From Archaeoglobaceae archaeon (GTDB lineage Archaea > Halobacteriota > Archaeoglobi > Archaeoglobales > Archaeoglobaceae): a stretch of DNA of 35,208 nucleotides. Positions 6,416 through 9,923 of the stretch are shown here, piece by piece; position 1 is the first letter of the stretch, and each line of letters begins with the position of its first letter. Where the stretch lies: the NCBI GenBank assembly GCA_026985525.1, contig JALSQI010000049.1:1-35208 (forward strand), written 5' to 3'. A program made the position numbers and the translations under genes. The notes under the pieces are model-generated. The model saw only the letters and a list, made by a program, of their open reading frames with translations. It searched no databases and had not been told where the DNA came from.

Positions 6416-6613
6416 ATGTTGTGCTTGTGTGTTGATGATATGGTTTTTAGAAAGCCTGCTTGCATTGAGAGGGGTTGTTGTTTCAAGTGCGTTTCCGGAT
6501 TGTGTCCGTTCGGTTACGACGTTATTACTGACTGCTTTCCCCACATGAGTGATGAGGAGAGAAATCTATTCATGGAACTGTTTCACCTTCGTAGCATACT
6601 CTCAAAGATTTAG
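6416..6613 (+). CDS. Small cysteine-rich protein upstream of the hydrogenase operon
   Basis: A 65-residue protein with eight cysteines, at positions 3, 5, 16, 21, 22, 25, 30 and 40. The N-terminal two thirds is the Cys-rich part (C-x-C, then RGCCFKC), and the last 20 residues form an amphipathic helix (DEERNLFMELFHLRSIL). ATG 6416 is preceded by GAGGTG. There is no signal peptide or membrane span. Such a density of Cys suggests a metal or Fe-S binding protein or a redox switch. It lies 110 bases before hydA in the same direction but has its own promoter region. I know no family name, and its link to the hydrogenase is only positional. Confidence 0.7.
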   Translation: MLCLCVDDMVFRKPACIERGCCFKCVSGLCPFGYDVITDCFPHMSDEERNLFMELFHLRSILSKI

Positions 6614-6723: not shown

Positions 6724-8133
6724 ATGGTAGAAAAGATTAGAACTTTTCCACCTTCTCCAGTAAATGAAAAGTTGAGAACTTATAGAAAAGGAGAGTTAGC
6801 AGGAATTGTAAGAGTATCCGATAGATGCGTAGGATGTGACACTTGCAGAACCCAGTGTCCTACTGGAGCGATGATGGGTGAGATCGGGACGAGGCATTAC
6901 ATAGACTACGACATGTGCATAAACTGTGGTCAATGTTTGATAAACTGTCCTTTTGGTGCGATTGAACAAATGAGTTTTCTCGATGAAGTAATGAAAAAAT
7001 TAGAAGACAAAAACTCTTTTGTTGTGGCAATAGTAGCTCCAGCTGTAAGAGTTGCGATAGCTGAGGAGTTTGGGAAGCCACCAGGGACATTAACAGTTTC
7101 GAACTTGCACTTAGCTTTGAAGAAAGCTGGATTTCACATATACGAAAACAACTTTGCTGCAGATCAGACGATAATGGAGGAGGGAACAGAACTCATAGGG
7201 AGGGTTGCGTATTGGGAGTTGGGGTTGAAAGAAATTGAATTCGAAATAAAAGACGTAAGACCAATCAGCTGGGTAAAAAAAGTAAAGTTAGATCTCAGCG
7301 AGTTTAAAAACAAACCGTTACCTCAATTTACATCTTGCTGTCCTGCGTGGGTTAGATATGCAGAAGTGTATTACCCTGAAATTTTACCGCACTTGTCGAG
7401 CTGTAAATCTCCGCAACAAATGGCAGGACCAACTGCAAAGACGTATGGGGCTTTAAAAGTTTGGAAAGTAAATCCAGAGAAGGTTTACACTGTTGGGATT
7501 ATGCCGTGTACGGCAAAAATATATGAGGCTTCAAGACCTGAATTCGACAGTGCTTGGAAGTGGTTGAAGGATAAAGGATTGGTTACCACTAAATTCAGAG
7601 ACGTTGACGCTGTTTTAACTACGAGAGATTTAGCAGAGCTGTTCAGGAGGAAAGGCATAAACCCGCTAAACTTTCCAAATAACGAAGAACCAGAAAACTT
7701 CGAGTGGTATAGTGGAGGAGGCACTATTTTCGGTACAAGTGGAGGTGTTATGGAGGCAGCCCTTAGATTTGCTTGGAGTGTTCTATCTGGTCAAGAACCG
7801 CCGGCAATTAGCGAAGATTGGAACTTTGTAAAAGTTAGGGGTTACACCCATCCAAGGGTTGAAGCAAAAGTTACGATACCTCTAAAGAAAGAGCTGAGAA
7901 ATGAAACTGGATTGGATGAATTAACGCTAAACGTTTGCGTGGTTAACGGGATTGGATACAGGGGTTTGCACATAAAAGAAGTTTTAGAAGAAGTTCTCGC
8001 AGGAACGAGTAAGTACCACTTTATAGAAGTCATGGCTTGCCCCGGAGGTTGCCTTAACGGAGGAGGTCAGCCAGTAGAGCCTATGGGAACTTCTTGGATA
8101 GACCCTGTTTTACCTTTACCGCTTGTGAGGTGA
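6724..8133 (+). CDS. hydA: [FeFe]-hydrogenase catalytic subunit, periplasmic Desulfovibrio type
   Basis: Catalyses reversible H2 oxidation at an H-cluster. Residues 30-80 hold two [4Fe-4S] ferredoxin motifs (C35, C38, C41, C45 and C65, C68, C71, C75). The H-cluster domain is complete. L1 TSCCPAW has C205 (proton shuttle) and ligand C206. L2 MPCTAKIYE has C262, K265 and E268. L3 MACPGGCLNGGGQP has ligands C439 and C443, with M260 and M437 lining the active site. At 469 aa it is slightly longer than D. desulfuricans HydA because of inserts near 275-290 and 361-395. There is no own signal peptide; export would rely on HydB. ATG 6724 follows GGTGGTGAA. It overlaps hydB. Sequence shows a true hydrogenase, not a Nar1-like relative. 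Maturases HydE, HydF and HydG are not in the window. Confidence 0.95.
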   Translation: MVEKIRTFPPSPVNEKLRTYRKGELAGIVRVSDRCVGCDTCRTQCPTGAMMGEIGTRHYIDYDMCINCGQCLINCPFGAIEQMSFLDEVMKKLEDKNSFVVAIVAPAVRVAIAEEFGKPPGTLTVSNLHLALKKAGFHIYENNFAADQTIMEEGTELIGRVAYWELGLKEIEFEIKDVRPISWVKKVKLDLSEFKNKPLPQFTSCCPAWVRYAEVYYPEILPHLSSCKSPQQMAGPTAKTYGALKVWKVNPEKVYTVGIMPCTAKIYEASRPEFDSAWKWLKDKGLVTTKFRDVDAVLTTRDLAELFRRKGINPLNFPNNEEPENFEWYSGGGTIFGTSGGVMEAALRFAWSVLSGQEPPAISEDWNFVKVRGYTHPRVEAKVTIPLKKELRNETGLDELTLNVCVVNGIGYRGLHIKEVLEEVLAGTSKYHFIEVMACPGGCLNGGGQPVEPMGTSWIDPVLPLPLVR

Positions 8134-8138
8134 TGACT

Positions 8139-8462
8139 TTGAGGTGGTTTGTTGAAAAACCTGCAAGTGTTAGAATAAAGAGAAGAACTTTGCTGAAAGC
8201 TTTTGGAATTGCCGTAGCTGCAATTGCAATTGGAGCGTATAAGGTAACTGACCTGTTCGTCCATAGAAACAAGTACATAAAGATGAGACAGAGCGGACAG
8301 TATAGGGATGACGAAAGAGTTAGAAAGAAGTATAGGCTTGCAGCGTCACATCAAAATCCGATGATAAAGAAGTTCTACGACGATTTTGCTGTTCAGCCTT
8401 TTGGGGAGATTAGCGAAGAACTCCTGCACACTAAGTACTTCCCAAGAACGAGGGGGTGGTAA
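8139..8462 (+). CDS. hydB: [FeFe]-hydrogenase small subunit with Tat signal
   Basis: Partner chain that wraps the catalytic subunit and carries it across the membrane. The N-terminus has a twin-arginine motif KRRTLLK followed by a hydrophobic stretch (FGIAVAAIAIGAY). The mature part matches the iron-hydrogenase small-subunit family, including the C-terminal block LLHTKYFPRTRGW, which corresponds to the LLHT-x-x-F segment of Desulfovibrio HydB. In Desulfovibrio the Tat signal on this subunit exports both chains. TTG 8139 is preferred (five bases after GAGGTGA); ATG 8133 overlaps the hydA stop and is the alternative. About 107 aa. Confidence 0.88.
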   Translation: MRWFVEKPASVRIKRRTLLKAFGIAVAAIAIGAYKVTDLFVHRNKYIKMRQSGQYRDDERVRKKYRLAASHQNPMIKKFYDDFAVQPFGEISEELLHTKYFPRTRGW

Positions 8463-8464
8463 AT

Positions 8465-9157
8465 GTGGGAGATGTAGTTTTAAGACATCCGCTTTCAAGC
8501 AGAATAGTGCACTTCGTAAACATGATTTGCTGGTATGGACTTTTCATTACGGGAATTTTAGTTTATCTAAAACTCGTAAGTAACTCAGAAAGAGCCTTAT
8601 TGATGAAACTGCACATATTCTTTGGAGCGATACTAACGTTCGTAATAGCAGCATATCTCGCATTAACTCCAGAGAGAGCGATGCTGTTTGTGCAAGAAGT
8701 TCTTAACTGGGATAAAGACACAATAGCTTGGTGGAAAAACTTTGGAGGATATCCATACAAGTTTCTTGGAAAAACCAAGCTTTACAAGTATATAGAAAAG
8801 TTCTGGTTTGCGAAACCGGGATGTCCTCCACAGACAAAGTACAACGCTGGTCAAAAGTTGCTTGGATTGACAGTAATAGCGAGCTTGTTCATTCTCGGAT
8901 TTACTGGATGGTTCCTTTACTTCTTCAGAGAGGCATTGGGCAAAAATGGAGTGTATTTATTCTTTAACTTGCACTTATGGATAGCAATATTGGTAACCCT
9001 ATTTGTAACGTTTGTTCACATACCCTTAGTCATAGTGAACTGGCCAGACTTCGTATCCATGTTCAGAATTGGTAGTGGTACCGTCCCAGTCGAGTGGGCT
9101 AAGGAACACAATCCAAAGTGGTTTGAAAACGATGTTGCAAAACTTGAGGAAAAATAA
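8465..9157 (+). CDS. Cytochrome b subunit of the hydrogenase (FdnI/HyaC type)
   Basis: Integral dihaem cytochrome b that should pass electrons from HydA/HydB to the membrane quinone pool. Four transmembrane helices lie at about residues 14-36, 48-66, 130-153 and 165-190. Candidate haem ligands are His16, His50, His170 and His185. The KYNAGQK segment before helix three is a hallmark of the formate dehydrogenase gamma / NiFe-hydrogenase cytochrome b family. GTG 8465 follows GGGGGTGG at a good distance; an in-frame GTG at 8456 overlaps that site. It is the third and last gene of the operon. Cytochrome b of this kind normally serves NiFe hydrogenases and formate dehydrogenases. Here it is paired with an [FeFe] enzyme. 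Confidence 0.88.
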   Translation: MGDVVLRHPLSSRIVHFVNMICWYGLFITGILVYLKLVSNSERALLMKLHIFFGAILTFVIAAYLALTPERAMLFVQEVLNWDKDTIAWWKNFGGYPYKFLGKTKLYKYIEKFWFAKPGCPPQTKYNAGQKLLGLTVIASLFILGFTGWFLYFFREALGKNGVYLFFNLHLWIAILVTLFVTFVHIPLVIVNWPDFVSMFRIGSGTVPVEWAKEHNPKWFENDVAKLEEK

Positions 9158-9164: not shown

Positions 9165-9923
9165 TTATAATTTAAATATTTTAGAATTTTTCAGTACGTG
9201 TATGTATAGCTGTTCACCCCATTCAACGCAGTTTGCATCTTTACAGACAAGAGCTCTCCTATAATCGAAAATTCCATTTTTTAAATAAAAATATATTATC
9301 AAATTATTTTCAGTTACGATAAAAGAGAATTTGTAACTCCTATTTGAAATATATAACTTTACATTGGGTTTAGAAATTCCAATTTTGAGTTTATCTACGT
9401 GTTTTGATAACAATTCCTCTAAAACCCCTCTACTAACGACGATTTCTATAGATTTGCTATTAGCTGCTTCGAGAAAAACATCTACGTATTCCGGAAAGAA
9501 TACGTTTGCATAACCCTTAATTCTTTTAGCGTCTCTCACAGCGTTAATGAAGGCTTTTTCAAGACAAAAGAAATCGCAACACTTCTCCGTTAAGCGAGCA
9601 TTCTCTAACATGTACAATCTATCCATCAAGTATGGGGGGATATCCTGAAAATCGTATTCTTTTAAGGCTTCAATCTCACACAGTTTTTCGAAACCTTCAA
9701 TAACTTCGTAAACGTTTAGCAGTAAATAACCTTTTGACGTCATTTTACAATAATTACCTGAAACTTCAACAAGACCTAAGTTCTCCGCTTTGTTGAGTAT
9801 CTGACTTACACGGGAAATTGAAACGTTGAGCTTTTCTTTCAACTCGTTTTTATTAACAACGCCGGAATCGAGCAGTTTTAGAACTTGGATTATTCGGGGG
9901 GAAAATAGGGCGTAGAATGACAT
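9165..9923 (-). CDS. Winged-helix transcriptional regulator, FilR1/DUF1724 family
   Basis: Archaeal DNA-binding regulator. Residues 8-70 form a winged helix (a KNELKEKLNVSISRVSQILNK type recognition region). Residues 120-250 match the FilR1 middle/sensor domain, including its typical ending of basic residues, a WG pair and a hydroxyl/hydrophobic run (CVEWGEQLYIHVLKNS). Several Cys (CCDFFC near residue 114-119, and two in the last 30 residues) could sense redox state or metal. ATG 9921-9923 has no ribosome site; AT-rich TATA-like sequence lies about 25-30 bases upstream, suggesting a leaderless message. It is convergent with the hydrogenase operon and divergent from gyrB, so either could be a target; this is inference. 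Confidence 0.82.
   Translation of the reverse strand: MSFYALFSPRIIQVLKLLDSGVVNKNELKEKLNVSISRVSQILNKAENLGLVEVSGNYCKMTSKGYLLLNVYEVIEGFEKLCEIEALKEYDFQDIPPYLMDRLYMLENARLTEKCCDFFCLEKAFINAVRDAKRIKGYANVFFPEYVDVFLEAANSKSIEIVVSRGVLEELLSKHVDKLKIGISKPNVKLYISNRSYKFSFIVTENNLIIYFYLKNGIFDYRRALVCKDANCVEWGEQLYIHVLKNSKIFKL

Follow-up and report, generated by a model that had tools for sequence, protein, structure and literature searches.

[FeFe]-hydrogenases were long held to be absent from Archaea. The periplasmic HydAB of Desulfovibrio desulfuricans (1hfe) is a two-subunit enzyme that presumably uses soluble cytochrome c3, not a cytochrome b subunit. A three-subunit membrane [FeFe]-hydrogenase, Hyd2ABC, was detected in the membrane fractions of Syntrophomonas wolfei, showed hydrogenase activity in gels and has been modelled to make H2 from menaquinol (PMC5101538). 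Group A [FeFe]-hydrogenases were previously reported in archaea, namely in Korarchaeia and DPANN (PMC10667645, PMC11094006); the archaeal forms described in the literature searched are cytoplasmic (Korarchaeia) or linked to fermentation (H2 evolution in DPANN). The hydABC operon analyzed here, from an archaeon of the Archaeoglobaceae, is predicted in contrast to encode an exported, quinone-coupled enzyme. Bacteria are known to have enzymes of this type, but an archaeal host is unexpected; by its sequence the operon is complete and probably functional.

The operon lies in a 35,208-nucleotide stretch of DNA (the window), in which an earlier note had claimed a complete exported [FeFe]-hydrogenase operon at positions 6724-9157. 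This was borne out: hydA, a hydB with a Tat signal suggestive of export, and a cytochrome b gene follow one another, and the matches that identify all three products are far above chance. The hydA stop and the hydB start overlap as TGATG and the cytochrome b start overlaps the hydB stop, and the three genes are therefore tightly coupled. The first gene, hydA (6724..8133, + strand), encodes a 469-aa large subunit with two N-terminal 4Fe-4S clusters and an H-cluster domain, an assignment based on profile match, catalytic residues and tree position. In profile searches, HydA matched Fe_hyd_lg_C (PF02906) at 245 bits, plus 4Fe-4S domains. The D. desulfuricans large subunit was matched at 328 bits, and among solved structures the periplasmic Desulfovibrio [FeFe]-hydrogenases come closest to HydA. 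Against the NCBI subfamily profile TIGR02512 the score was 389.5 bits (E 1e-116), below the cut-off of 405.95, and HydA carries insertions relative to D. desulfuricans HydA. All residues listed in the note are at the positions claimed: the H-cluster ligands Cys206, Cys262, Cys439 and Cys443, which sit in the L1/L2/L3 motifs; the proton-shuttle Cys205; and Lys265 and Glu268. Eight further cysteines (Cys 35, 38, 41, 45 and 65, 68, 71, 75) supply both ferredoxin-type clusters. The catalytic residues and the eight cluster cysteines are invariant across 14 aligned relatives.

HydA has no signal of its own; a Tat-type signal is instead carried by the separate small subunit, HydB (8130..8462, + strand), which matched Fe_hyd_SSU (PF02256) at 57.6 bits against a cut-off of 24. 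As had been noted, HydB has a Tat motif, KRRTLLK followed by a hydrophobic stretch, and an LLHT ending (LLHTKY). The score with the general Tat profile, 14.4, is slightly below the cut-off of 16.7; orthologues in congeners bear the cleaner motif SRRTFLK, and the RR pair is invariant in 13 aligned HydB sequences. TatC is encoded in the same genome. Based on the orthologue N-termini and the TGATG overlap with the hydA stop, GTG 8130 or ATG 8133 is the likely hydB start, and TTG 8094 is unlikely. The window enzyme resembles D. desulfuricans HydAB in its predicted export, its two 4Fe-4S clusters, its TSCCP, MPC and CPGGC motifs, the RR of its small subunit and the LLHT ending.

The third gene, a hydC/fdhC-like gene (8456..9157, + strand), encodes a dihaem cytochrome b of the FdnI family of membrane anchors. 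It matched PF01292 at 56.5 bits and TIGR01583 at 56 bits and is nearest to formate dehydrogenase gamma. Four histidines (His19, His53, His173 and His188) are invariant among 15 aligned sequences, as is N130-x-GQK. Four long helices are predicted in its AlphaFold model (mean pLDDT 89), whose sole convincing PDB match is E. coli FdnI, the gamma subunit of formate dehydrogenase N (1kqf_C; E 1.6e-6, TM 0.71/0.77). FdnI, the closest solved fold, is about 21% identical to the window protein and serves a molybdenum formate dehydrogenase. These results agree with the dihaem cytochrome b that the note had placed after HydB. FdnI and the window cytochrome b share a KYNAGQK stretch; its NAGQK part lies at the quinone site in FdnI, and by homology a quinone site is predicted here. 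In FdnI, the arrangement carries electrons inward across the membrane from its outer face, and the window cytochrome b may do likewise. The note had also called a cytochrome b partner for HydAB unusual. This is contradicted by our survey, in which a cytochrome b gene directly followed hydB in 16 of 16 bacterial loci of the clade that have a separate HydB, and by S. wolfei Hyd2ABC (PMC5101538).

We consider it highly probable that the locus encodes an outward-facing, membrane-bound H2:menaquinone oxidoreductase that was gained horizontally from bacteria; the proposal of an H2:quinone oxidoreductase in the note is likewise probable given the gene content, the FdnI-like dihaem cytochrome b and the Tat signal. 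In such a complex, HydE, HydF and HydG, whose genes are present, would insert the H-cluster into HydA inside the cell, and the signal on HydB would direct the folded HydAB dimer to the Tat system, by which it would be exported to dock onto cytochrome b. H2 would be split outside, with electrons passing through the two 4Fe-4S clusters to the two haems b, and menaquinone would be reduced near the inner face; as in formate dehydrogenase N, this would make up an electrogenic half-loop. The reduced quinone would most likely feed sulfite/sulfate respiration. DsrAB was found in the window genome, and each genome has two genes of the MqnA/MqnD menaquinone type, an assignment made at the level of the PF02621 family. 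The searches proposed in the note for CODH/ACS and [NiFe]-hydrogenases returned CdhC and both a group 1-like and a Vhu/Mvh-type [NiFe]-hydrogenase. The enzyme would add an H2 entry point to sulfite/sulfate-reducing archaea alongside their [NiFe] enzymes.

The direction of electron flow cannot be read from the genes, since the model for S. wolfei Hyd2ABC, a homologous complex whose genes are ordered alike, has it making H2 from menaquinol (PMC5101538). The same complex might accordingly run in reverse, with menaquinol oxidized and H2 made outside at the expense of the proton motive force, as a way to dispose of electrons in syntrophy or fermentation. As a rule [FeFe] enzymes produce H2 well, and the genome already has a likely uptake enzyme in the group 1-like [NiFe]-hydrogenase; against this, DsrAB and CODH/ACS are encoded, a setting in which oxidizing external H2 pays, and the Campylobacteraceae and Shewanella relatives of the operon are respiratory bacteria. 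We therefore regard H2 production as possible but unlikely, and uptake as the more likely direction in a Dsr-bearing organism. The claim that H2 feeds the menaquinone pool stands as the likely direction, but as one deduced in the face of a homologue modelled the other way. The group 1-like [NiFe]-hydrogenase (L149:6224-9663, - strand), which has a Tat signal on its small subunit and a cytochrome b of its own, provides a parallel route from H2 to quinone. Because of its presence, the [FeFe] enzyme may be redundant with it or may serve special conditions. We also note that a gene for a type III RuBisCO large subunit (L150:4462-5877, - strand) adjoins the Vhu/Mvh-type [NiFe]-hydrogenase genes.

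We examined the origin of the operon with trees of HydA (46 sequences) and cytochrome b. The five archaeal HydA copies form one clade (100/99) nested inside bacteria; it is sister to Campylobacteraceae (100/99) and is joined next by Shewanella (99/93) and then by D. desulfuricans (98/91), with the Syntrophomonadaceae outside this grouping. In the cytochrome b tree, the archaeal copies again group with Campylobacteraceae (95/89). Bacterial sampling in both trees was limited to near relatives; since HydA nests within a bacterial clade, the best reading is that hydABC was acquired from a bacterium of the wider Campylobacteraceae/Shewanella/Desulfovibrio group. This agrees with the acquisition from bacteria that the note had suggested. 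Its term "Desulfovibrio-type" is loose, as the nearest relatives are Campylobacteraceae and D. desulfuricans HydAB is farther from window HydA than those of Campylobacter or Shewanella. The Campylobacteraceae loci (Campylobacter majalis, L008, and a MAG, L009) share the order hydA-hydB-cytb with the window and encode HydA proteins 52-54% identical to that of the window, but they have hydG-hydE-hydF directly downstream, genes that lie on other contigs in the window genome. The HydA-HydB-FdhC genes of Shewanella corallii (L010) are in the same order; they are more distant, with HydA 50% identical and a strongly diverged cytochrome b. S. wolfei Hyd2ABC and its relatives (L011-L022) share the three-subunit layout and gene order but belong to a separate HydA clade, with about 49% identity to window HydA.

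These trees also bear on vertical descent of the enzyme from an ancient [FeFe]-hydrogenase of Archaea, which would be conceivable given that other archaea, such as Korarchaeia, have [FeFe]-hydrogenases (PMC10667645). The HydA clade sits among bacterial HydABC, however, apart from the remaining archaeal sequences of that tree, and among 394 genomes from the phylum just 8, 6 of them in Archaeoglobaceae, were found to have an [FeFe]-hydrogenase of any kind. Grouping HydA with HydA2, a second [FeFe]-hydrogenase of the same genomes, as one archaeal [FeFe] lineage was rejected (AU p 6.5e-5). We thus consider vertical inheritance very improbable. If the operon did come from bacteria, an entire electron-transport module, together with the maturases dedicated to it, can pass from one domain to another and be retained as species diverge.

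A bacterial origin of the operon would also be expected if hydABC were bacterial contamination or part of a chimeric contig. The window comes from an Archaeoglobaceae MAG of 1.34 Mb in 81 contigs, 95% complete with 0.04% contamination, and the GC3 of hydABC agrees with that of the neighboring genes. The window genes checked include archaeal types (an archaeal pilin, D-aminoacyl-tRNA deacylase and FilR1). An independent Archaeoglobaceae MAG, JALSLC01, has hydABC on JALSLC010000004.1 (G042) with HydA 93% identical to the window and with the same flanks, gyrB and a FilR1-like gene on one side and an MreB-like gene on the other, whereas the nearest bacterial HydA is 54% identical. Two further congeners, G044 and G041, carry the operon at other sites, and hydABC is intact in four species of the genus (those of the window, G042, G044 and G041). 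As three congeners thus share the operon and one other genus of the family has a broken copy, a chimera is refuted to a high degree, and contamination or misassembly appears the least probable of the explanations considered. The archaeal host named in the note is accordingly well founded.

The broken copy is in G036 (L144:4067-6515), where hydA has a frameshift and cytb has two Trp-to-TAG codons, while HydA2 is intact despite the broken hydABC. The operon has apparently decayed there and is therefore dispensable in that organism. Recoding of the TAG codons was considered and set aside, since decay or sequence error is simpler given the hydA frameshift. Identity between G036 and G041 is about 71% for core proteins, 79% for HydA and 86% for HydA2; as the hydrogenases are more alike than the core proteins, this suggests a second transfer of the hydrogenases, within the family. 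No such HydA was found in the remaining Archaeoglobi searched; two congeners lacking it are represented by incomplete genomes.

Two genes next to the window operon may be mentioned. A FilR1-like winged-helix regulator (9165..9923, - strand; PF08350, 92.8 bits) is convergent with hydABC and syntenic in G042 at 46% identity, and is a possible regulator of hydABC. Upstream of hydA is a small Cys-rich ORF of 65 aa (6416..6613, + strand), whose membership in the operon is uncertain. It has a counterpart in the same place in a sister species (63% identity; tblastn E 2e-28 against L145/L007), was not found near hydA in G041 or G044, and gave no family match in the profile search.

Absence of the maturases HydE, HydF and HydG would have spoken against a working enzyme, an objection that falls because all three were found in the window genome above curated cut-offs (HydG 483 bits, HydF 485 and HydE 293). 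In G044, the operon is flanked by the genes for HydF and HydG at one end and by that for HydE at the other, and in G041 the HydE gene comes immediately after hydABC; this adjoining position ties the maturases to HydABC. The maturase trees held too few reference entries for naming a donor. A serine hydroxymethyltransferase gene adjoins hydF and an aspartate ammonia-lyase gene adjoins a hydF paralogue, neighbors that fit the route by which the amine of the H-cluster is known to be supplied (PMC11736057). The diverged paralogue (L152:6292-7422 and L146:15435-16694, both - strand) has lost the C-terminal cluster motif in the window genome and retains it in G041. Between hydG and hydF, several congeners encode a conserved protein of about 100 aa (L146:8127-8429, + strand; L142:1562-1855, - strand), for which the copy tested had no Pfam or NCBIfam match.

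No earlier report of an Archaeoglobaceae HydABC was found in the literature searched, which did not include Greening et al. (Cell 2024), and priority is uncertain. We would give about even chances to the broader proposition that this is the first respiratory, exported, quinone-linked archaeal [FeFe]-hydrogenase and that a sulfite-reducing lineage acquired two unrelated [FeFe] enzymes, the cytoplasmic one of G041 replacing the [NiFe] module of an MvhD-HdrABC electron-bifurcating complex. The family includes known thermophiles, making it a source of HydAB enzymes open to expression and testing. HydA2 itself has 633 aa with a fused small domain and, by the AU result above, an origin separate from HydA. 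In the window genome, it is encoded beside hydG, without hdr genes (L087:10773-12674, - strand). In G041 it lies in an operon with MvhD, HdrB, HdrC and HdrA2-like genes (L146:136-6117, - strand), which suggests an [FeFe]-Hdr electron-bifurcating complex. HydA2 has TSCSP in place of TSCCP; loss of function was not concluded from this, as the solved [FeFe]-hydrogenase HydA1 (7q4v) shares TSCSP.
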